From: Jannaschia sp. CCS1
GTDB lineage: Bacteria > Pseudomonadota > Alphaproteobacteria > Rhodobacterales > Rhodobacteraceae
Length of the DNA: 64,000 nucleotides
Direction of reading: 5' to 3'
Assembly (NCBI RefSeq): GCF_000013565.1
Contig: NC_007802.1
Location: 1,302,001 to 1,366,000 of the forward strand
Shown: one piece after another, positions 1-9,275 of the stretch
Numbering within the stretch: position 1 is the first letter of the stretch
Layout of the letters: every line of letters begins with the position of its first letter
The notes under the pieces: generated by a model
The model's input: the letters and a program-made list of their open reading frames with translations, nothing else
The model's database searches: none
What the model was told of the DNA's origin: nothing
Made by a program: the position numbers and the translations under genes

Positions 1-263
1 CAGACTTCGTGCGGCATCATGATCTGACCATTGATGGGGATTTTCCGCACAACACGTCTGGCGGGCAGTTGTCGGCGGGCCAGGCAGGCGCTGCGGGCGG
101 CTATATCGGCATGGTGGAAGCGGTGCGGCAGGTCACCGGGACCGCTGGCGGCACGCAGGTGGCAGATGCCAGGACGGCGATGGTGTCGGGGTTTGGCATG
201 ATCAACTATGACCGCGGGGTCTGTACCAGCGCCTCTATCCTGAAAACGGGGGGTCGGGCATGA
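1..263 (+). CDS. Thiolase / acetyl-CoA acetyltransferase-like protein, C-terminal end (partial)
   Basis: Only the last ~85 codons are in the window; the reading frame is open to the left edge, so the GTG at 9 is not a real start. The tail has a conserved thiolase C-terminal layout: an NTSGGQLSAGQAGAAGG stretch (the Asn-x-x-Gly-Gly region before the active-site loop), then GYIGMVEAVRQ. Thiolase-like proteins of the lipid-transfer/SCP2 type are commonly encoded next to a DUF35 zinc-ribbon/OB partner, and one starts here with a 4-base ATGA overlap. The role is probably C-C bond cleavage or formation on an acyl-CoA; the substrate cannot be read from this fragment. Confidence 0.75.
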   Translation, partial: DFVRHHDLTIDGDFPHNTSGGQLSAGQAGAAGGYIGMVEAVRQVTGTAGGTQVADARTAMVSGFGMINYDRGVCTSASILKTGGRA

Positions 264-1516
264 CCATTGAACTTACCCCTCCACCCAAAAAGAACCCGCA
301 GAAACGCTCCACCAGTGCGACCCGTCCGCCAGAGGCGCGGTCCCGTGCGGCGCTTGGCCTGAGCGCCGCCGCTGCTGAGGGACGCTTTGCGCTTCAGGTC
401 TGTGCGGAATGTCAGGCCGTGCAATACCCGCCGCGCGATGCCTGCGCGGCGTGCATCGGCACCGATTTGGTCTGGCAAGATATCTCCCCAGATGGCCACC
501 TGTTGGCCGAGACGACAATCCAGACCTCCACCAAGCTGTTTTTCCGCGAGCGGGCTCCCTGGCGAATGGGATCGGTCAAACTCACGGCGGGGCCCGTTGT
601 TCTGTGTCACGTTCACGGCGATTGCACCCGTGGCGGTCCAGTGAAGATATTGAACCGTTTGGATAAATCAGGCCAAGCCGTGCTAATCGCAATTCCCCCC
701 GAGAGGACCGAGCATATGGATGATGACCCCCAACTCCGCGCGATGTCCGCCAACCCCAAGCACCGTCGCATCCTGATCACCGACGCCTGGAACCCAAACA
801 CGCCCGCCTTGGCGAAGGCTCTGTTGGAGGCGGGGGCCGCGACGATCTTTGTGGGTGAAGCAGAAAGCTGGCGGCCCCATCCCAACCGCGACACGCTGGC
901 GGGGATGGAGAATGTGGACATCCTGCCGCTGGACGTGACCGACACGGCTTCGGTCCAGACACTTGCCGGAGAGATTGGCGGCAAGACCGACATCCTTATA
1001 AACAACGCCCGCTTCATGCGCCCGGGCGGCGTCCTGGCGCGCGGGGACACAGGGTTTGCCCGTGATGAGATGGAGGTGAATTACCTCGGGCTCATGCGGC
1101 TTGCGCAGGCCTTTGGTCCCGGCATGTGCGCGCGAATGGCAGATGGGGTGAACTCCGCCGCGGCCTGGGTCAACATTCTGTCCGCCCACGCGTTGTCCAA
1201 TGCGCCGGATTATGGGTGTTTCTCGGCCTCCAACGCCGCCGCCTACTCCCTCAGCCAATCGTTGCGTGGAGAGTTCCGCAGCGCCGGGCTGCGGGTCATG
1301 AACGTCTTTGTGGGACCGACGGACGATGATTGGTACGCCCCTTTGCCACCGCCCAAAGTGCTGCCCACAGGCCTGGCACGATCTGTCGTGGATGGTCTTC
1401 GCGACGGGCTGGAGGACGTCTGGTGCGGTGACATCGCCAAAGACATGCGCGACCGCTGGCGGCGTGATGCAAAGGTGCTGGAGCGGGAGATGACATTCGG
1501 GAGTGAAGGCGCATGA
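260..1516 (+). CDS. DUF35 zinc-ribbon/OB-fold protein fused to a degenerate SDR domain
   Basis: 418 residues in two modules. Residues ~35-150 are an acyl-CoA-associated DUF35 module: a zinc ribbon with Cys48, Cys51, Cys62 and Cys65 followed by an OB-fold-like segment. Residues ~168-400 are a short-chain dehydrogenase fold. The SDR hallmarks are missing: the TGxxxGxG loop reads TDAWNPN from Thr174, NNAG reads NNAR, and the YxxxK catalytic pair is Phe321...Asn325 in FSASN. The fold is recognisable but the catalytic Tyr and Lys are gone, so I infer a non-catalytic scaffold or ligand-binding role. It overlaps the thiolase by ATGA, and a G-rich ribosome site (GGGGGTCGGG) precedes the ATG. A stand-alone DUF35 protein would be about 130 residues, so this is a true fusion. 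Confidence 0.85.
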   Translation: MTIELTPPPKKNPQKRSTSATRPPEARSRAALGLSAAAAEGRFALQVCAECQAVQYPPRDACAACIGTDLVWQDISPDGHLLAETTIQTSTKLFFRERAPWRMGSVKLTAGPVVLCHVHGDCTRGGPVKILNRLDKSGQAVLIAIPPERTEHMDDDPQLRAMSANPKHRRILITDAWNPNTPALAKALLEAGAATIFVGEAESWRPHPNRDTLAGMENVDILPLDVTDTASVQTLAGEIGGKTDILINNARFMRPGGVLARGDTGFARDEMEVNYLGLMRLAQAFGPGMCARMADGVNSAAAWVNILSAHALSNAPDYGCFSASNAAAYSLSQSLRGEFRSAGLRVMNVFVGPTDDDWYAPLPPPKVLPTGLARSVVDGLRDGLEDVWCGDIAKDMRDRWRRDAKVLEREMTFGSEGA

Positions 1517-2289
1517 GCAACCTTGAAAGTTTGGCTGCGGACATCACCGCCGGCACCGTGCGCATCGTCGATCTGACCCACACATTGGACCCAGATTTTC
1601 CGGTTATCATCTTGCCGCCGGAATTCGGCCAATGTGCCCGGTTTCGCATGGAAGAGATCAGCGCCTACGACCATCGCGGGCCAGCGTGGAAGTGGCACAA
1701 CCTGACCTTGTCCGAGCATACGGGCACCCATTTCGACGCGCCGTCGCACTGGATATCTGGCCGTGATGTGCCCAACGGCTCGGTCGATGAAATCCCGGTG
1801 GAGGCGTTTGTCGGCCCGGTCGTGGTCATCGATTGCTCGGCGGGCGCTGCGGCAGACGATGATTTTGAGCTGACGCCAGAGGTTATCGAGGCGTGGGAGG
1901 CGGAGCACGGGGTGATCCCGATAGGTGCGTGGGTGTTGATGCGCACCGACTGGTCCAAACGATCCGGCGCGGCGTATCTGAACATGCGCGAGGATGGTCC
2001 ACATTCCCCCGGGCCGACCCCGGATGGCATTCGGTTCCTGGTTGAGCAGCGCGATATTCGAGGCTTTGGCACGGAGACCGTTGGCACAGATGCGGGGCAG
2101 GGGTCGCATTACACGCCGCCCTATCCGGCGCATTACGTCCTGCACGGTGCGGGGAAGTACGGGCTTCAGTGCCTCGCAAACCTTGACCAATTGCCGCCCA
2201 CTGGCGCCGTGCTGATTGCGCCGCCGCTCAAGATCAAGAACGGCACCGGCAGCCCGCTGCGTGTTCTGGCGATGGTGCCAAACCCATAA
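1513..2289 (+). CDS. Cyclase family protein (kynurenine formamidase-like metal hydrolase)
   Basis: 258 residues, the usual length for the cyclase/KynB-like fold. The metal-binding signature HxGTHxDxPxH is complete at His69, His73, Asp75 and His79. Members hydrolyse formamides, lactones or isatin-type rings with divalent metal. The start overlaps the preceding stop (ATGA), so it is the third gene of the thiolase/DUF35 operon and probably acts on a ring-opening or lactone intermediate of that pathway. The exact substrate is unknown; no kynurenine-pathway genes are nearby, so I do not call it kynB. It ends 2 bases before the convergent TRAP gene. Confidence 0.85.
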   Translation: MSNLESLAADITAGTVRIVDLTHTLDPDFPVIILPPEFGQCARFRMEEISAYDHRGPAWKWHNLTLSEHTGTHFDAPSHWISGRDVPNGSVDEIPVEAFVGPVVVIDCSAGAAADDDFELTPEVIEAWEAEHGVIPIGAWVLMRTDWSKRSGAAYLNMREDGPHSPGPTPDGIRFLVEQRDIRGFGTETVGTDAGQGSHYTPPYPAHYVLHGAGKYGLQCLANLDQLPPTGAVLIAPPLKIKNGTGSPLRVLAMVPNP

Positions 2290-2291
2290 GG

Positions 2292-3605
2292 CTACATCTG
2301 GCTTGGCAGGAACAGAACCAGGCCAGGCAGCGCCAGCAAAAGCAGCAGTCGCACGATATCAGCCATCCAGAACGGTGTGACCGCCCTGAAGATGGTGCCG
2401 GTGGACACGTCGCCCACCACGCCTTTCAACACGAAAACGTTCAGGCCCACAGGTGGGGTGATCAGGCTGATCTCCACCACCACGACGACGACGATGCCGA
2501 ACCAGACCGGATCGAACCCCAGGCCTGTGACGACCGGGAAGAAGATCGGCACCGTCAGCAGCAGCATCGAAAGGCTCTCGAACACGCAGCCCAGGACGAT
2601 GTAGATCAGCATGATGAGTGCCATGACGGCCCAGGGGGCGAGGTTGTAGGTTGTCACCAATTCGGACAGGCCCTGCGGCAGGCCCGCGACGTTGACGAAG
2701 TTTGAGAAAATCCAAGCGCCGATCAGGACCGCGAAGAGTGATGCGGTTGTCTTTGAGGTTTCGACCAATACCTCAACCGTGTCCGCGAAAGACAGGCGGC
2801 GCCGCGCGAGCGCGATCAGGAACGCGCCCATGGCGCCCATTCCGGCGGCTTCCGTGGGGGAGAAGGTCAGGTTCAGCGGCGCCACGTCGAACACGCCGTA
2901 AAGCCCGCCGATAACGAGGAAGAAAAGCAACAGGACCGCCCAAACCTCTCGCAGGCTTTTCAAGCGCGCGGGCAGCGGTGTTCTGGGGCCAGCGGGGCCA
3001 CTTTCCGGCTTGCGCCAAACGGAAAACCTGACCGCGCCGAGGTAGAAAACGATGCCAAGCGCCCCGGGGATGATCCCCGCAATGAACAGCTGGCCGATGG
3101 AGGTCTCGGTCAGCAGGCCATAGATGACAAGGATCACAGAGGGCGGGATCAGGATGCCGAGCGTGCCACCTGCCGCGATGGAGGCCGTGGCCAGCCCATC
3201 GGCATAGCCGTGGCGGCGCATCTCGGGCATTGCGACTTTGGACATCGTGGCGGCCGTGGCGAGAGAGGAGCCCGAGATGGCAGCAAACCCGCCACAGGCC
3301 ACGATTGTTGCCATTGCCAGCCCGCCACGCAAATGGCCAAGGAAGGCATTGGAGGCGGCATAAAGCTCTCGGCTGATGCCCGCCTTGTTGACGAACAGAC
3401 CCATCAGGATGAACAGCGGCACGACCGACAGGCCATAATTCTGGCTGGTGTCGATGATCAGCCGCGCGACCATGGAGATGGAGGCGCGGAAATTGCTGTC
3501 GATCATGAAGCCTATCATGCCGACGAACCCCATCGCGAAGGCGATTGGCAGGCGTAGCAAGACAAGCGCCAGGACGGCCACGAACCCGATCAGACCCTCA
3601 AACAT
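2292..3605 (-). CDS. TRAP transporter large permease (DctM family)
   Basis: About 437 residues from the ATG at 3605 (MFEGLIGFVAVLA). A longer frame to 3662 adds a non-hydrophobic, arginine/cysteine-bearing leader and is rejected. The protein is almost wholly hydrophobic, with about a dozen membrane segments and the family-typical glycine/proline-rich motifs, for example GGTLGILIPPS and the C-terminal ITPPVGLNVFVLKG. It forms the Na+-coupled translocation channel with the small subunit, whose gene it overlaps by 8 bases. It is the last gene of a DctP-DctQ-DctM operon read leftwards. Confidence 0.93.
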   Translation of the reverse strand: MFEGLIGFVAVLALVLLRLPIAFAMGFVGMIGFMIDSNFRASISMVARLIIDTSQNYGLSVVPLFILMGLFVNKAGISRELYAASNAFLGHLRGGLAMATIVACGGFAAISGSSLATAATMSKVAMPEMRRHGYADGLATASIAAGGTLGILIPPSVILVIYGLLTETSIGQLFIAGIIPGALGIVFYLGAVRFSVWRKPESGPAGPRTPLPARLKSLREVWAVLLLFFLVIGGLYGVFDVAPLNLTFSPTEAAGMGAMGAFLIALARRRLSFADTVEVLVETSKTTASLFAVLIGAWIFSNFVNVAGLPQGLSELVTTYNLAPWAVMALIMLIYIVLGCVFESLSMLLLTVPIFFPVVTGLGFDPVWFGIVVVVVVEISLITPPVGLNVFVLKGVVGDVSTGTIFRAVTPFWMADIVRLLLLLALPGLVLFLPSQM

Positions 3606-4110
3606 CAGATGGCACCAGTTGTGGCGCAAAGGCCCACATGAGCCCGCGCAAAATGAGGACAAGGGCGGTGATGCCGATCATGACGGCAATGAACCAGCCG
3701 AGATAATGCACGGACAGTCCAAGATATTCCATGACGTCCCCGTAAGATCTGCTGCGTTCGGCCAAGACCCAGACGCGCTGCGTGGGCCGGATCAACATCA
3801 CCCCGCAGGCCAGGTCCACCATCGCATTCCGCCAGCGCGCCAGGTTGAACCTGTTGAAAAATCCATCCAGGAGATCAACGCTGATCTGCCCCCCACGTGC
3901 GGACAGGATCGGCATCACCGAGAAGACAGTGACGGCCATCAGCACCCGCGTCAGGTCCGCGCGGGTCTCGATCGGGGCGTTGAAGATCGAGCGCAACATC
4001 ACGTCGGTGAAGGTGATGACCATCAGCGCGAACAGCGCCAGCGCCGCCATTGCGGTCGGCACTTGAACAACACGTTTGAAGAGGGTGGACACGGGCGAAC
4101 GCTCCGTCAA
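3598..4110 (-). CDS. TRAP transporter small permease (DctQ family)
   Basis: 170 residues with four hydrophobic segments (around 20-40, 55-75, 95-115 and 135-155) and the RGGQISVDL motif typical of DctQ after the second helix. It partners the large permease in the inner membrane. The frame opens with TTG at 4110; a GTG at 4092 with an upstream GGAG is an alternative start that would shorten it by six residues. It is separated from the binding-protein gene by a 47-base gap holding a strong stem-loop. Confidence 0.88.
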   Translation of the reverse strand: MTERSPVSTLFKRVVQVPTAMAALALFALMVITFTDVMLRSIFNAPIETRADLTRVLMAVTVFSVMPILSARGGQISVDLLDGFFNRFNLARWRNAMVDLACGVMLIRPTQRVWVLAERSRSYGDVMEYLGLSVHYLGWFIAVMIGITALVLILRGLMWAFAPQLVPSDV

Positions 4111-4116
4111 AGACAG

Positions 4117-4143
4117 GGCCCCGCCGATTTTGGCGGCGGGGCC
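4117..4143 (-). other. Stem-loop between TRAP binding-protein and permease genes
   Basis: A perfect 10-bp inverted repeat (GGCCCCGCCG / CGGCGGGGCC) with a 7-base loop lies between the dctP stop and the dctQ start. No good T-run follows in the direction of transcription. It is therefore more likely an mRNA-stabilising or partial-termination element than a full terminator, favouring binding-protein expression over permease. Confidence 0.6.
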
Positions 4144-4157
4144 AGGAGAAGCGGCGC

Positions 4158-5177
4158 TTATTCGGCAGACACTTCTGCCATTGCATCGACGACCAGCTGA
4201 TACGCGGCCTCGGCATCGACCCCGGCTTCGGACAGCTCAGCCAGCACGCCTTCGCGCACCGTTGCGGCGATCTCCGCGAAAGCGGCCTGATCTTCGGCGC
4301 TGGCTTCCACGGAGGTGGTGCCGTCCCCCATGGCCTCATAGGCCAGTTGATCGGACAGATCCCACGCGGCACCGGCCATGCGGCTGGCAGGCTCACCCAG
4401 GACCTGCTCGGCCAGGGCGGTTTGGACATCCTCAGGCAGGCCGTCAAAGGTTTCCTGGCTCATGATGATGGCGAAGGAGCCGCGATAGAAGCCACCGGGC
4501 ATTTCGTAGAGGGCAGGGGCGACTTCATTCAGGCGAAAGCCGATGCGCTCGCCCACGTTCATCGCCACGGCATCTGCGGCACCGGACTCAAGGGTTTCAT
4601 AGACCTGCGGGGCAGGGACGTTCACGCCCACCAGCCCGATGGCAGAGCCAACGTTGCCAGCCACGCCCCCGCCGATGCGGGTACGAAGACCGTCCAGGTC
4701 AGCCAACGCATAGGCAGGTTCGCGAAGGTGCAACTGACCCGGGCCGTGGGTGTTCAACGCGACGACGATCACGCCTCGGTGCTCATCCAGAGCGGCCAGA
4801 TGCGCCTCATGGGCGCGCCAGTAAGCGACGGACGCCGCCTCTGCGCTGCCGGTGTAGCCGGGCAACTCGATCAACTGCGTGCCGACGAAACGGCCGGGTT
4901 GATAGCCGTGGAAGATGATGGCCATGTCGGCCGCGCCATCCAGCACCAAGTCCATCTGTGCAGGCGGCGGGGCGAGACCGGACACCAACTCACCAGTGAC
5001 GGCCCCATCGGTGGCATCTTCGATCATCTCGATCAGGCCGCCGAAGATATTGGTGTTGATGCCGTGGGTGGGTGGCAGCCAGGTCGAAATGCGCAGGGTC
5101 GTGTCCTGAGCCAAAGCGGGGGCGGTCAGCGCGACGCTGACGAGGGCGGCACAGGCCCATCCTCTGGAAAAATTCAT
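4158..5177 (-). CDS. TRAP transporter substrate-binding protein (DctP family)
   Basis: 339 residues with a Sec signal peptide ending ALTAPALAQ, so it is periplasmic. The mature part has the DctP fold: ligand strand near the N-terminus (LRISTWLPPTHG), a central RIGGGV segment carrying the arginine that normally salt-bridges a carboxylate ligand, and a long C-terminal helix region. The ATG at 5177 is preceded by GGGAG. The likely ligand is an aromatic or other organic acid used by the neighbouring catabolic genes; this is inferred from context and from the shared MarR operator, not from binding-site residues. Confidence 0.9.
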   Translation of the reverse strand: MNFSRGWACAALVSVALTAPALAQDTTLRISTWLPPTHGINTNIFGGLIEMIEDATDGAVTGELVSGLAPPPAQMDLVLDGAADMAIIFHGYQPGRFVGTQLIELPGYTGSAEAASVAYWRAHEAHLAALDEHRGVIVVALNTHGPGQLHLREPAYALADLDGLRTRIGGGVAGNVGSAIGLVGVNVPAPQVYETLESGAADAVAMNVGERIGFRLNEVAPALYEMPGGFYRGSFAIIMSQETFDGLPEDVQTALAEQVLGEPASRMAGAAWDLSDQLAYEAMGDGTTSVEASAEDQAAFAEIAATVREGVLAELSEAGVDAEAAYQLVVDAMAEVSAE

Positions 5178-5236
5178 GTCGTTACTCCCTATTCAAAGAC
5201 GCATCGTTGCCCGGATTCTTTCCCATCCGGCGATTT

Positions 5237-5274
5237 ATATGAAAAATCATATGCATTTGCATGCACCCTGTCTA
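5237..5274 (-). promoter_or_regulatory. Promoter and MarR-type operator of the TRAP operon
   Basis: On the minus strand a -35 TAGACA (5274-5269) and a -10 TATGAT (5251-5246) are spaced by exactly 17 bases. The -10 lies inside a palindrome ATATGA-N4-TCATAT at 5237-5252. The same palindrome occurs at 5779-5794 on the other side of the marR gene, also on a -10. MarR proteins bind 16-20 bp palindromes of this kind and repress by covering the -10, so this is a strong candidate operator for the adjacent regulator. The -35 overlaps the last codons of marR. Confidence 0.75.
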
Positions 5275-5742
5275 GTCTGGCCCTTTGCTCTCTTCCAGAT
5301 GGGCCAGCAGCGTTTTGAGAACGGGCTTGATCCGTGCCGCGTCCGTGTCTGCGATTTTTGAGAGAACTCCGGTTTCATGCTGTTTCGCCGCGGCCACCAG
5401 GCGGTGGGCTATTCCTGCACCCTTGTCGGTCAACTCGATCCGCACCCGCCGTTTGTCCGTCTGATCCGATGTGCGCCGCACTAGACCGCGCTTGTCCATC
5501 TGATCAATGACCTTCGTCATCCGGGACTGTTCCATCAACGCACGGTTTGCCAGTTCGGTGATCATCGCGCCGTCGCGGTCATAGAGACACGCCAGCACGC
5601 GCCATTCCGGCACACGCAGACCTGCCTCGCGGACCGAGGCGTGGAATTGACCACTCGCGCGCTCGCTCGCAGCCGCCAGCAAGTACAACAGGTAGTCGTC
5701 TACGAAGCCTGCATCTGCGCTATCTTGGGGACCATCGGCCAT
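5272..5742 (-). CDS. MarR family transcriptional regulator
   Basis: 156 residues from the ATG at 5742 (GAGGG upstream); a GTG at 5757 would add five residues with no ribosome site. The winged-helix domain covers ~30-115, with the helix-turn-helix around MITELANRALMEQSRMTKVIDQMDKRGLVRR and a basic wing (TDKRRVRIELTDKG). MarR proteins are usually dimeric repressors released by small aromatic acids. The gene sits between the TRAP operon and the dioxygenase operon, with identical palindromes at both promoters. The simplest reading is that one aromatic ligand derepresses its own import and oxidation. Confidence 0.92.
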   Translation of the reverse strand: MADGPQDSADAGFVDDYLLYLLAAASERASGQFHASVREAGLRVPEWRVLACLYDRDGAMITELANRALMEQSRMTKVIDQMDKRGLVRRTSDQTDKRRVRIELTDKGAGIAHRLVAAAKQHETGVLSKIADTDAARIKPVLKTLLAHLEESKGPD

Positions 5743-5766
5743 GTCTGACGCCCTCACAGCAAAGTC

Positions 5767-5795
5767 TTGACAGAATATATATGAAAATTCATATT
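5767..5795 (+). promoter_or_regulatory. Promoter and MarR-type operator of the dioxygenase operon
   Basis: TTGACA at 5767-5772 and CATATT at 5790-5795 are spaced by 17 bases. The palindrome ATATGA-N4-TCATAT at 5779-5794 covers the spacer and -10. It has the same two half-sites as the site at 5237-5252. Transcription would begin near 5802, which rules out the upstream ATG at 5781 (inside the operator) and supports a start at 5802 or 5814 for the reductase. Confidence 0.75.
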
Positions 5796-5813
5796 AATTT
5801 GATGGACAAGTCA

Positions 5814-6749
5814 ATGATACCCTTCACAGTCACCGAGAAGACCGCTCTGACAAAGCGCATTTCCGCGTTCACATTGCAACCCGCAGATGGGGCGCGACCG
5901 TTGGGCTGGGCCGCGGGGGCCCATGTTGACGTGGATCTGGGGGAGGTGGGGGCGCGGTCTTATTCCCTTATTTCTTGGCCCGGAGTGGATACGAATTGCT
6001 ACCGGATCGCCGTGCAACGTGAAGAAAACGGCACCGGGGGCAGCGCTGCGATGCATGCGCTTTCGGTTGGTGCGACGGTTCCGATCTCTGCCCCCAAAAA
6101 CAGTTTCGCACTTGAGGATACAGACGATCCGGTCGCGCTCATTGCGGGCGGCATCGGCATCACGCCGTTGATCTCCATGGCGACAGAATTGCTGCAAGCC
6201 GGACGCCTGTTTGTGCTGCATTATGCGGGCCGGTCCGCTGAGGTTGTAGCTTATGAGCCTGAACTGGCGCAGATGTTGGGTGATAGGCTGATCAGCCATT
6301 TCGACGATACCACGCCGCTGGATTTGCCCGCGACACTGGCCATCCTGACCGACCATCGCCTCTATGTTTGCGGCCCCCGTGGTATGATTGATGCGACGCG
6401 CATTGCCGCCGAGGCCGCCGATATCCCTGGGTCCCGTGTCCATTTGGAGCTGTTCGCCAGCCCGGACGCGGATGGTGACGACGCCGCGTTCGAGGTCGAG
6501 ATATCATCTACCGGGAATGTCTACACCGTGCCCCCCAACGTCTCCATTATAGAGGCGCTGGAGGCGGAGGGCGTCGATCTTATGTATGATTGCCAGCGTG
6601 GCGATTGCGGCATTTGCCAGGTGGATGTGCTGGATGGCACGCCCGATCACCGTGACGTGGTGTTGAGCGATGCGGAAAAGCAAAGCGGCAAGGTCATGCA
6701 AATCTGTGTCAGCCGGGCGCTGTCCAAGCGCCTTGTTCTGGATATCTGA
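5814..6749 (+). CDS. Oxygenase reductase with flavin, NADH and plant-type [2Fe-2S] domains
   Basis: 311 residues from the ATG at 5814; in-frame ATGs at 5781 and 5802 lie in or at the edge of the promoter. Domain order is flavin-binding barrel (RSYS motif), NAD-binding domain (GGIGITPL) and a C-terminal plant-type ferredoxin with ligands Cys260, Cys265, Cys268 and Cys298. This is the phthalate-dioxygenase-reductase / vanillate-demethylase-reductase arrangement. It passes electrons from NAD(P)H to the Rieske oxygenase encoded next. It is the first gene of a four-gene operon. Confidence 0.92.
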   Translation: MIPFTVTEKTALTKRISAFTLQPADGARPLGWAAGAHVDVDLGEVGARSYSLISWPGVDTNCYRIAVQREENGTGGSAAMHALSVGATVPISAPKNSFALEDTDDPVALIAGGIGITPLISMATELLQAGRLFVLHYAGRSAEVVAYEPELAQMLGDRLISHFDDTTPLDLPATLAILTDHRLYVCGPRGMIDATRIAAEAADIPGSRVHLELFASPDADGDDAAFEVEISSTGNVYTVPPNVSIIEALEAEGVDLMYDCQRGDCGICQVDVLDGTPDHRDVVLSDAEKQSGKVMQICVSRALSKRLVLDI

Positions 6750-6766
6750 GGGGGGAGAGAAGAGTG

Positions 6767-8077
6767 ATGACACCCGATCAAATCCGGGGCCTCGTGCAAG
6801 GCCACCAGGTCCACCGCGATGTCTACACCAGCCAGGACGTCTACCGCGCAGAGATGCGGCACCTGTTCGCCAACACCTGGGTCTTTGTCGGCCACGACAG
6901 TCAGACGCCGGGCAAGGGCGACTATATCACCACGCAGATCGGCGATCAGCCGGTTATTCAAGTGCGCCATTCCGATGGAGAGATCAAAGTCCTCCACAAT
7001 CGCTGCCCCCACAAAGGCACAAAGATTGCGATTGATCGACAGGGCAACACCGGTAAGTTCTTTCGATGCCCCTACCATGCCTGGAGCTTCAAGACAGATG
7101 GCTGCCCTTTGGCGATCCCGCTGAAGAAGGGGTATGAAGGCACCGGCCTGCAACAGACGGAAAATGCGGGCGGCATCAAGCCTGTGGGTGCGGTGCACGT
7201 GTATCGCGGCTTCGTCTTCGCGCGTCTGGCGTCTGAGGGGATCGGGTTCGAGGCGTTTTTCGGCGATAGTCTCAGTTCTATCGACAACATGGTTGACCGC
7301 GCGCCAGAGGGGCGGCTGGAAGTCTCAGGACCGCCGCTGCGCTACATGCATAAGTGCAACTGGAAAATGCTGGTCGAAAACCAGACCGATACCTGTCACC
7401 CGATGGTGGCGCATGAAAGTTCGGCCGGGACTGCGATTGATATCTTCAAGTCCATGGGCGAGCCCGAGCCGCGCCCCGCTGCGATGCAGATCATAGCCCC
7501 CTTCATGTCGGCCTATGAGTTCTTTGAGGAGATGGGCATTCGCACCTGGCCCAACGGCCATGGGCACACCGGTGTCAACATGTCGATCCACTCCAACTAT
7601 GATGCCTTTCCCGGATATTTTGACGCGATGACAAAGGCCTACGGGGAGGATCGCGCCAAGGCTATTCTGGATGAGAACCGCCATAACACCGTTTATTTCC
7701 CGAATGTGATGGTCAAAGCGCCATTGGCACAATTGCGCAACTTCATCCCCATGGGCCCGAACAAGACGCTGGTGGAAAGCTATGTCTATCGCCCCGTGGG
7801 TGCGCCCGATGAGATGACCGCCATGTCGGCAATGTATAACCGGATGATCAATGCGCCGACCTCCATCGTCGGGCACGATGACCTGGAGATGTACGAGCGT
7901 GCGCAGGAGGGTCTGATGTCCAACGGGCTGGAGTGGGTGAACCTGCAACGCCTATACGAGGAAGATGAAGATTTCAGCGAAGAGGCGGTTGAGAACGGCA
8001 CGACCGAGCGGCAAATGCGCAATCAGTTCAACGCCTGGGTCAAGTTCATGACCGTGGACGCGGAGGCTGCGCCATGA
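6767..8077 (+). CDS. Rieske non-haem iron aromatic ring-hydroxylating dioxygenase, large (alpha) subunit
   Basis: 436 residues, the typical length. The Rieske [2Fe-2S] ligands are Cys80-x-His82 and Cys101-x2-His104. The mononuclear iron site shows Asp208, His211 and His216 (TDTCHPMVAH); Asp208 would be the residue bridging to the neighbouring Rieske centre. It adds O2 across or beside an aromatic ring, using electrons from the reductase. The ATG at 6767 is better placed than the GTG at 6764 relative to the GGGGGGAGAG site. It overlaps the beta-subunit gene by ATGA. The substrate is undetermined. Confidence 0.93.
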   Translation: MTPDQIRGLVQGHQVHRDVYTSQDVYRAEMRHLFANTWVFVGHDSQTPGKGDYITTQIGDQPVIQVRHSDGEIKVLHNRCPHKGTKIAIDRQGNTGKFFRCPYHAWSFKTDGCPLAIPLKKGYEGTGLQQTENAGGIKPVGAVHVYRGFVFARLASEGIGFEAFFGDSLSSIDNMVDRAPEGRLEVSGPPLRYMHKCNWKMLVENQTDTCHPMVAHESSAGTAIDIFKSMGEPEPRPAAMQIIAPFMSAYEFFEEMGIRTWPNGHGHTGVNMSIHSNYDAFPGYFDAMTKAYGEDRAKAILDENRHNTVYFPNVMVKAPLAQLRNFIPMGPNKTLVESYVYRPVGAPDEMTAMSAMYNRMINAPTSIVGHDDLEMYERAQEGLMSNGLEWVNLQRLYEEDEDFSEEAVENGTTERQMRNQFNAWVKFMTVDAEAAP

Positions 8078-8553
8078 CCATCACCCGGGATGACGTTGTC
8101 GACTTCATCTACGCCGAGGCGCGGATGCTGGACGAGGGGCGCTTTACCGAATGGTTGGGGCTTTGGCTGCCCGATGCCCATTACTGGATGCCGTTGGACT
8201 ACAATCAGATAGACCCGGTGAACGAGACGTCATTGCTCTATGAGGATCAGTTCATGCTTGGGCTGCGGGTGGAGCGTCTGAACGGCGCCCGCACGTTCAG
8301 CCAAAAGCCCAAAAGCCGCTGCCACCACGTGATCCAGCGCCCGTTTGTGGATATGTTTGACGTGGATGCCGGCACGTTCCAGACCAACACGGCCATGCAC
8401 TATGTCGAGACGCGGCTGGATGAACAGCAACTGCTTGCGCTGACCGCGGTTCATGATTTGGCGCTCGTCGACGGCGCGTTGCGGATCGCGGGCAAAAAGG
8501 TTGTGCTGCTAAACTCGGACGCCGCGTTCGGCAATATTCAGTTGCTGCCATGA
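8074..8553 (+). CDS. Aromatic ring-hydroxylating dioxygenase small (beta) subunit
   Basis: 159 residues of the NTF2-like cone fold of dioxygenase beta subunits (EARMLDEGRFTEWLGLWLPDAHYWMP near the N-terminus and the conserved HVIQRP segment). It has a structural role in the alpha3beta3 hexamer. It overlaps both neighbours by ATGA, showing translational coupling. Its presence makes this a true two-subunit dioxygenase rather than an alpha-only demethylase, despite the vanillate-type reductase. Confidence 0.9.
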   Translation: MTITRDDVVDFIYAEARMLDEGRFTEWLGLWLPDAHYWMPLDYNQIDPVNETSLLYEDQFMLGLRVERLNGARTFSQKPKSRCHHVIQRPFVDMFDVDAGTFQTNTAMHYVETRLDEQQLLALTAVHDLALVDGALRIAGKKVVLLNSDAAFGNIQLLP

Positions 8554-9275
8554 GCGATCTGACAGCCGTCATTACGGGCGGGAACAAGGGGATCGGCGCC
8601 GATCTGGCGCGCGCGTTGCTCGATCGGGACTACACCGTCGTCTCGGTCTCCCGCCATGCGCCCGATTGGACCCATCCGCGATTGTCCTCGGTGGAGGCGG
8701 ATTTGCTGAACGCGGAGACAGTCAAGCTCGCGGCGGACCATATCGCCGCAACCCATGACGTCAGCCATCTGATCCACAATGCAGGGATGATCTGGCCCAA
8801 TCTGGTGGAGGAGGCGCAGCCCTCGGACATCACCGGCCTGGCACAACTGCACCTCGGCTCGGCGCTAACGCTGCTGCAAGCCACGCTACCCTCAATGAAA
8901 GCGCGCGGCATGGGGCGGGTCATGTTCAATGCCTCCCGTGCGGCCCTCGGCGCGCCCACGCGCACGGCCTACAGCGCCAGCAAGGCAGGTATGATCGGCA
9001 TGGCGCGCACCTGGGCGTTGGAACTTGCGCCACATGGCATCACCGTGAACGTCGTCGCCCCCGGTCCGATCCTGACGGACAATTTCTGGGGCATCATAGA
9101 CAAAGACAGCCCCCAGCAAGAGGCGCTGGCCAAACGTATCCCGGTGGGTCGGCTTGGCACGGTCGAGGACGTCACCAACGCGTTCCTGTTTTTCTGCGAT
9201 CCGACCAATGGGTTCGTGACGGGGCAAACGCTCTATGTGTGCGGTGGGGCCAGCGTTGGGACGCTCCAGATCTAG
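8550..9275 (+). CDS. Short-chain dehydrogenase/reductase, probable cis-dihydrodiol dehydrogenase
   Basis: 241 residues, a classical SDR with all motifs: the cofactor loop GGNKGIG near residue 10, NAG at ~75, a catalytic Ser in NASRAAL and the YSASK catalytic Tyr/Lys, then the PGPILT segment. It is the last gene of the dioxygenase operon (ATGA overlap), where a dehydrogenase that re-aromatises the cis-diol is expected. That substrate is inferred from position. Confidence 0.88.
   Translation: MSDLTAVITGGNKGIGADLARALLDRDYTVVSVSRHAPDWTHPRLSSVEADLLNAETVKLAADHIAATHDVSHLIHNAGMIWPNLVEEAQPSDITGLAQLHLGSALTLLQATLPSMKARGMGRVMFNASRAALGAPTRTAYSASKAGMIGMARTWALELAPHGITVNVVAPGPILTDNFWGIIDKDSPQQEALAKRIPVGRLGTVEDVTNAFLFFCDPTNGFVTGQTLYVCGGASVGTLQI

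Follow-up and report, generated by a model that had tools for sequence, protein, structure and literature searches.

The DUF35-SDR fusion and its family

In the 64,000-nucleotide stretch of Jannaschia sp. CCS1 DNA analysed here (contig NC_007802.1, positions 1,302,001 to 1,366,000; the window), a single open reading frame with an ATG start, at 260-1516 of the forward strand, encodes a 418-residue protein that joins a DUF35 module, a zinc ribbon followed by an OB fold, to a domain of the short-chain dehydrogenase/reductase (SDR) fold. The gene lies in a locus of the iad type, for catabolism of the auxin indole-3-acetate, and its product is probably IadH, which may act with the product of the preceding gene, iadG, as an aldolase. 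A Pfam search found all three domains in the one chain: zf-ChsH2 (E 5.2e-10; 39.4 bits against a cut-off of 23.2), OB_ChsH2_C (E 3.6e-10; 40.1 bits against 27.1) and adh_short at residues 183-356 (E 8.9e-16). This was the domain check suggested by the first-pass annotation, made from the sequence letters before any search, and it bore out the zinc ribbon, OB segment and SDR-like domain described there. The cysteines and altered motifs named in that annotation (C48, C51, C62 and C65; TDAWNPN at 174-180; NNAR at 248-251; Phe321 and Asn325) all stand where it had placed them. The fusion is the sole zf-ChsH2 match in the Jannaschia sp. CCS1 genome.

The best sequence family for the SDR half was NCBIfam NF006118 (E 2.4e-45), at 155 bits, under that family's cut-off of 279. 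An AlphaFold2 model built with 40 sequences showed an SDR fold and DUF35 (mean predicted local distance difference test, pLDDT, 83.9; predicted template-modelling score, pTM, 0.87), and its top Foldseek match was PDB 5u4s, with a TM-score of 0.88 by target length. The PRK08264-type SDRs (NF006118) and 5u4s are thus the nearest sequence family and fold; 5u4s is an NADP complex, whereas the fusion family is without the cofactor motifs.

To describe the family we compared 92 distinct full-length fusions, each at least 390 residues long and distinct in the last 350; close relatives were kept, so the counts below are not of independent events. They were selected as long frames with both halves at the locus, which shows that the fusion is common and not that split forms are absent, and truncated copies such as those at loci L056, L059, L060 and L103 fall outside the set. 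A contig search gave 68 loci, 53 with the fusion (three of them partial) and 15 matching the SDR part alone. In the taxonomic family of the window, 34 of 295 genomes matched at E <=1e-20, 27 with the fusion and seven with the SDR only; one of the 27, G233, is visible from residue 186 onward, where its contig ends. Across the phylum, at E <=1e-30, 23 of 398 genomes matched (eight with the fusion, 15 with the SDR only), as did 16 of 200 in the family of genome G659 at E <=1e-60. Among plasmids, 52 records matched, in 34 of which a single place spans 80% or more of the query; two Variovorax plasmid records matched only partially, in the SDR region. The occurrence of one continuous frame in 92 distinct fusions rules out a sequencing error or two separate genes, the latter being an outcome that would have undone the first-pass annotation.

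The positions of the canonical SDR residues, taken from the usual SDR numbering, were checked against 19 unfused SDRs. These keep the three loop glycines, the NNAG glycine and the lysine in 19/19 and the tyrosine in 16/19; because the canonical residues are kept there, the columns are the canonical ones. In the fusions, by contrast with the four zinc cysteines, intact at every column in 92/92, the first loop glycine is never present, being Asp in 89 and Asn in three. The second loop glycine is retained in two and the third in 37, and the NNAG glycine is replaced in 90 and retained in two. Tyrosine remains in 13 and lysine in 19, and one protein, from locus L144, has both. None of the six canonical residues is kept in 46 fusions, one in 21, two in 23 and three in two. 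The 19 lysine-bearing proteins are 18 with FxxxK and one with YxxxK, and 16 of them come from the Variovorax-like family of G659, the others from L051, L053 and L054. Loss of the cofactor loop is therefore family-wide and loss of Tyr/Lys is graded, so that the motif loss first described for the window protein held for the loop and was not uniform for the catalytic pair. Homologues with intact YxxxK had been named as evidence that would speak against a non-catalytic SDR half; the single such protein reads TDGKTAVG and NNAE at the other two motifs. It belongs to genome G723 and groups with FSASK relatives in the tree, perhaps as a reversion.

The SDR half is nevertheless not decaying, because it is conserved like the DUF35 half and carries a residue set of its own. 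Jensen-Shannon conservation was 0.598 for the SDR half and 0.592 for the DUF35 half, mean pairwise identity was 0.587 and 0.583, respectively, and the SDR half was the more similar of the two in 2235 of 4186 pairs. Asp175 is found in 89/92 fusions where unfused SDRs have Gly (19/19), and Trp358 in 92/92 where they have Met (19/19). Arg254 and Arg292 are invariant in the fusions and occur in 3/19 and 1/19 unfused SDRs, respectively. Asp295 and Gly296, each in 92/92, face a gap in 19/19 unfused SDRs; Trp204 (89) and Arg/Lys205 (87) also face a gap, in 19/19 at Trp204. Arg/Lys177 is found in 86, with Trp instead in the window protein and five others.

A midpoint-rooted tree was built from 27 pseudo-SDRs, 15 unfused SDRs, 10 copies of the intact pathway SDR IadJ and a further SDR encoded in this genome. 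In it, the pseudo-SDRs clustered as one group (27/27, support 0.955) beside the unfused SDRs, a placement that is partly due to choice since the unfused SDRs were picked by likeness to the fusion, and apart from IadJ (10/10). This grouping rules out an origin by duplication of IadJ. A PRK08264-like reductase that lost cofactor binding is the probable ancestor of the SDR half, and redox chemistry by this half is, judging from its motifs, very unlikely.

The fusion gene lies in an iad locus

All of the genes for IadCDE, F, G, H, I and J were found at the locus (Table 1), in two runs, F-G-H-I and C-D-E-J, with a MarR gene and TRAP transporter genes lying between them. Roseibium aggregatum has a single run, MarR-C-D-E-F-G-H-I-J, with a TRAP transporter also annotated beside its iad genes, and Ruegeria pomeroyi DSS-3 has the order C-D-E-F-G-H-I-J.

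Table 1. Features of the fusion gene and of the surrounding iad locus in the window (aa, amino-acid residues of the fusion).
Feature	Position	Strand	Basis or remark
3' end of iadG-like gene (thiolase fold, aldolase-type motif)	1-263	+	overlaps fusion start codon; whole gene L077:7088-8263
Probable iadH, DUF35-pseudo-SDR fusion, 418 aa	260-1516	+	open reading frame, Pfam, family alignment
Zinc ribbon (zf-ChsH2), aa 36-70, C48/C51/C62/C65	365-469	+	Pfam, alignment
OB fold (OB_ChsH2_C), aa 72-130	473-649	+	Pfam; PDB profile matches
SDR-fold domain, putative pseudoenzyme, aa 169-412	764-1495	+	Pfam, NCBIfam, model, fold search, conservation
TDAWNPNT, former glycine-rich cofactor loop, aa 174-181	779-802	+	alignment
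NNAR replacing NNAG, aa 248-251	1001-1012	+	alignment
FSASN replacing YxxxK, aa 321-325 (Phe321, Asn325)	1220-1234	+	alignment
iadI-like isatin hydrolase (cyclase family)	1513-2289	+	PDB 5nnb, isatin hydrolase A, E 1.1e-155; Pfam Cyclase
TRAP transporter genes separating the two runs of iad genes	2292-5177	-	frames 2292-3662, 3598-4110, 4158-5177; named by eye
MarR-like regulator	5272-5757	-	by eye; same position relative to iadC in Roseibium aggregatum
iadC-like reductase (Fer2, NAD_binding_1)	5781-6749	+	Pfam
iadD-like Rieske oxygenase alpha subunit	6764-8077	+	PDB 9o71, E 5.3e-162
iadE-like Rieske oxygenase beta subunit	8074-8553	+	Pfam
iadJ-like intact SDR dehydrogenase (TGGNKGIG, YSASK)	8550-9275	+	alignment, tree, Pfam

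The link to the studied Variovorax pathway runs through G659. Its IadD scored 986.6 bits to 7yls, from which it differs at 25/437 positions, and 985.0 to 9o71, the IadDE structure of V. paradoxus CL014 (PMC12633357). Against 9o71, the IadD proteins of L166 and L160 scored 630-632 bits, that of L164 849 and that of L153 985. The G-H-I run of G659 carries the fusion, its H-position gene having the same four Pfam families. For Variovorax itself, the available portions of two reports give gene numbers that put iadH-J beside iadG (PMC10374108) and an iadC-K2 region of nine genes (PMC12633357); combining the two, the order there would be C to J. The IadH of V. paradoxus CL14 thus occupies the same slot between iadG and iadI as the fusion. 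In the parts of PMC12633357 at hand it is described only as an annotated alcohol dehydrogenase, and its likeness to the fusion is by position and through the G659 locus. Because of the Rieske and isatin hydrolase matches, the gene order and the G659 locus with its near-Variovorax IadD, we think it likely, as part of the whole aldolase reading given below, that the fusion is IadH. The name iadH has also been given to another gene (PMC8383072), which, from the part of that paper available, we read as belonging to an iac-like cluster.

The association with the neighbouring genes was constant. IadG was adjacent upstream of the fusion in 89/89 distinct loci with enough flank, and the isatin hydrolase IadI was adjacent downstream, with a gap of less than 120 bases, in 86/89, the exceptions being L096, L141 and L168. 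In the taxonomic family of the window, the genomes with the fusion and those with IadG (E <1e-140) were the identical 27 of 295, and IadG-like matches beyond them were at 4.5e-64 or weaker.

Several variations on the locus were seen. Genome G263 had the IadG and IadH genes matched twice each, on contigs C12 and C31. Five loci (L154-L158) carried G-H-I without matches to IadC, D, E or J within the stretches examined; an IadF-like ligase lay near G-H-I in L154, L156 and L157, was weak in L158 and was not found in L155, and in L154 the three genes adjoin genes that by eye resemble an ABC transporter of the branched-chain amino acid type. A second Rieske alpha/beta pair was present past iadJ in L153, L159, L160, L161, L163, L164 and L166. 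Upstream of iadF, at L077:1777-3969 and 3825-5462, lies an indolepyruvate:ferredoxin-oxidoreductase-like pair (TIGR03336 under cut-off; POR, DUF6537), and such genes were matched beside several other iad loci too; a possible function of the pair is oxidation of isatinate, a 2-oxo acid, to anthraniloyl-coenzyme A (CoA). By eye, we also noticed frames joining a peptide-type ABC ATPase to an SDR, 529-539 residues from stop to stop, at L062:291-1892, L066:6134-7750, L104:1489-3099(-) and L105:1486-3072(-). Those of L062, L104 and L105 have Leu in place of the tyrosine (LCASK) with TGxxxGxG and NNAG intact, and that of L066 keeps the tyrosine.

IadG resembles aldolases rather than thiolases

The top PDB matches of IadG were 9myr_A (E 4.8e-52), 4u4e_A (3.1e-46) and 6ok1_A (7.6e-45), with the thiolase chains 7yvy, 7pxp and 6esq next, at 3.3e-38 to 5e-26. 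The first is probably CtSal-CtShy, judging from a YDCY motif that lies where it is expected and from a second chain that is a DUF35 protein named acyl dehydratase, and 6OK1 is TcChsH2-DUF35-TcLtp2 (PMC12329534). A profile of the DUF35 half, built from 16 sequences, matched 6ok1_B (1.6e-9), 6esq_E (2.3e-9) and 9myr_B (3e-9), then PhlB and 7pxp_A (0.0017), the partner in benzoylsuccinyl-CoA thiolase. IadG and the DUF35 half therefore each find a counterpart chain in both aldolase entries, 9myr and 6ok1.

The motifs of IadG also point away from a thiolase. YDDY was found in 90/90 distinct IadG sequences, at a column that reads YDCY in 9myr, YDHF in 6ok1 and HDAF in the benzoylsuccinyl-CoA thiolase subunit. 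The thiolase cysteine column, fixed by pairwise alignment of IadG to 7yvy, holds Gly (Gly86) in 90/90, with a Cys two columns further in 1/90; the 7yvy cysteine at this column we take, from its motif, to be the thiolase nucleophile. A true thiolase is thus disfavoured by YDDY and the glycine, and on chemical grounds as well, because the proposed substrate would be a tertiary alcohol, from which oxidation cannot give the beta-ketone required by a thiolase. As reported in the accessible part of PMC12329534, Tyr302 of CtSal is essential, Tyr302Phe abolishing activity; Cys304Ala and Cys304Ser had no detectable activity, Cys304His gave no rescue, and Sal Gln352 aligns with TcLtp2 Tyr344. In our alignment, IadG Asp284 stands at the column of Sal Cys304 and Gln332 at that of Sal Gln352.

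These results bear on the first-pass suggestion that the SDR half may serve the upstream thiolase as a docking or acyl-CoA-binding module. The tie to a thiolase-fold gene stood, as the constant adjacency and shared genomes show. The partner, however, appears to be of the aldolase type, and by the precedent of Shy-Sal and ChsH2-Ltp2 docking should fall to the DUF35 half instead of the SDR half.

Both precedents resemble IadG-IadH in other ways. Shy-Sal, the bile acid aldolase of Comamonas testosteroni, likewise combines a thiolase-fold YDxY aldolase with a DUF35 domain fused to an enzyme fold, and its genes adjoin; according to the parts of PMC12329534 and PMC11321319 available, the other domain of Shy is an active MaoC hydratase, modelled behind a flexible linker, whereas IadH has a cofactor-less SDR. 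Sal has YDCY and IadG YDDY, and the zinc finger is Cys3His1 in Shy and Cys4 in IadH. In ChsH1-ChsH2-Ltp2 (6ok1), as proposed for IadH, DUF35 shares its chain with an enzyme-like domain that is not catalytic, there MaoC-like, and is bound to the aldolase; unlike in IadG-IadH, the fold is MaoC-like, DUF35 is C-terminal, the substrate is a steroid, and Ltp2 has YDHF plus a second catalytic Tyr. ChsH2 binds the steroid rings while the side chain reaches ChsH1 for hydration and the DUF35 domain binds the aldolase, and the title of the report refers to a partner domain that is catalytically inert (PMC11321319, seen in part). IadH may follow the logic of ChsH2 with another fold. The benzoylsuccinyl-CoA thiolase (7pxp) shares the thiolase fold and DUF35 with IadG-IadH and differs in its HDAF motif, being a thiolase by name.

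A proposed aldolase reaction and its alternatives

In the pathway that we propose, the IadCDE Rieske oxygenase, the IadJ dehydrogenase and the IadF CoA ligase would convert indole-3-acetate to dioxindole-3-acetyl-CoA, a tertiary beta-hydroxyacyl-CoA. The DUF35 half of IadH would be the accessory subunit of IadG, the two forming an aldolase of the Sal/Ltp2 kind in which IadG Tyr282, probably with Asp284, would cleave dioxindole-3-acetyl-CoA in a retro-aldol reaction to isatin plus acetyl-CoA, without any change of redox state; IadI would then hydrolyse isatin. The SDR half would have been retained as a pseudoenzyme with a structural or substrate-handling role, like the MaoC-like half of ChsH2. 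On the sequence evidence, we consider it likely that IadG-IadH is such a DUF35-containing aldolase with a conserved pseudoenzyme half and, by the same reading, that the fusion, although annotated as a dehydrogenase, is not one. Complex formation, the reaction, and the role and origin of the pseudo-SDR are the parts that we infer; the fusion itself, its motif losses, its constant partner gene, the aldolase-type motif of IadG and the constraint on the family are observed.

Genetic work in Variovorax, available to us in part as a 2025 preprint (PMC12633357), fits a role for IadH at this step. Deletion of iadF, iadG, iadH or iadI significantly reduced anthranilate, and C10H9NO4, assigned as dioxindole-3-acetic acid, accumulated. 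The preprint infers the side-chain step from annotated functions, with IadG a ketothiolase, IadH an alcohol dehydrogenase and the removal reductive; the word 'aldol' is absent from its text. Isatin, the product expected of an aldolase, has been detected in Variovorax cultures, as stated in the part of PMC9613470 available.

Several observations weigh against an aldolase. C8H7NO2, the formula of dioxindole, was found in the iadI deletion and in an iadCDEFGH_JK2 strain (PMC12633357), and Variovorax cultures, too, contained dioxindole (PMC9613470), as far as the accessible text of both goes. Since an aldolase would yield isatin (C8H5NO2) first, dioxindole would then have to be assumed to be a side product of isatin reduction. 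The second catalytic residue of Sal, Cys304, is Asp in IadG, where it is a putative acid/base, and the DUF35 half cannot separate an aldolase from a thiolase because it also matches the thiolase complex 6esq_E. DUF35 was seemingly not important for activity in ChsH2-Ltp2, by the available part of PMC11321319, which would allow the iadH deletion phenotype to stem from the SDR half. Finally, the protein of L144 keeps both Tyr and Lys.

The dioxindole findings are what would be expected if IadH were an active though divergent reductase and, together with IadG, took off the acetyl side chain by reduction to leave dioxindole, as the Variovorax preprint has it. The family gives this some further colour, in that lysine and tyrosine persist in a minority of fusions, Asn274 in 80 of the 92 and Ser308 in 85. 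Set against it are the universal loss of the first loop glycine, the near-universal loss of the NNAG glycine and the retention of Tyr with Lys in a single protein; moreover, dioxindole needs oxidation to isatin before isatin hydrolase can act, and the parts of PMC12633357 available assign no gene to that oxidation. We regard an active reductase as improbable.

SDR pairs with one dead subunit do exist, BbsCD being an example, and the pseudo-SDR half could in the same way pair with the intact SDR IadJ as a mixed dimer, tethering IadJ to the aldolase. Of the 54 distinct loci that extend 4.5 kb or more on each side of the fusion, 47 have an IadJ match nearby. The other seven keep the pseudo-SDR but show no match to IadJ over the stretch examined, and this makes an obligate dimer of IadH with IadJ less likely, although IadJ could sit elsewhere in those genomes; the tree, too, sets the two groups apart and shows no duplication of IadJ. 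Such a dimer has, in our estimate, little chance of being right. A less remote alternative, which we still hold to be doubtful, is that the SDR half is an inert module for dimerisation or stability with its old cleft empty. The confidently modelled fold and the lost catalytic motifs would both suit this, but Asp175, Trp204, Arg254, Trp358 and Arg/Lys177 are strongly conserved near the old cleft, a placement derived from SDR topology and not from coordinates. Within the aldolase reading, we offer only tentatively that the emptied cleft was rebuilt with these five residues to hold the indole ring or the CoA part and to pass dioxindole-3-acetyl-CoA to IadG.

Implications for auxin catabolism

The first-pass annotation presented a fusion of this kind as probably undescribed. 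Literature matches on DUF35 with SDR or dehydrogenase included, by the titles and abstract openings of the matches listed, no DUF35-SDR fusion, and on this point it agrees with what we found; the gene itself, however, already has the name iadH and a Variovorax knockout (PMC12633357, available in part). By the same measure of titles and abstract openings, searches on IadF/IadG/IadH, on iad with isatin and on dioxindole-3-acetic acid with aldol returned no aldolase in the pathway.

If the proposal is right, dioxindole-3-acetyl-CoA would be converted directly to isatin with no reductant, and an oxidation of dioxindole would be unneeded. The aldolase product, isatin, would fit the isatin hydrolase encoded next door. 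The DUF35-aldolase type would extend from steroids to auxin, with another fold as its fused partner. It would also mean that public records, such as that of Roseibium aggregatum, which names the fusion 'SDR family NAD(P)-dependent oxidoreductase', give the name of SDR oxidoreductases to what is a pseudoenzyme family.

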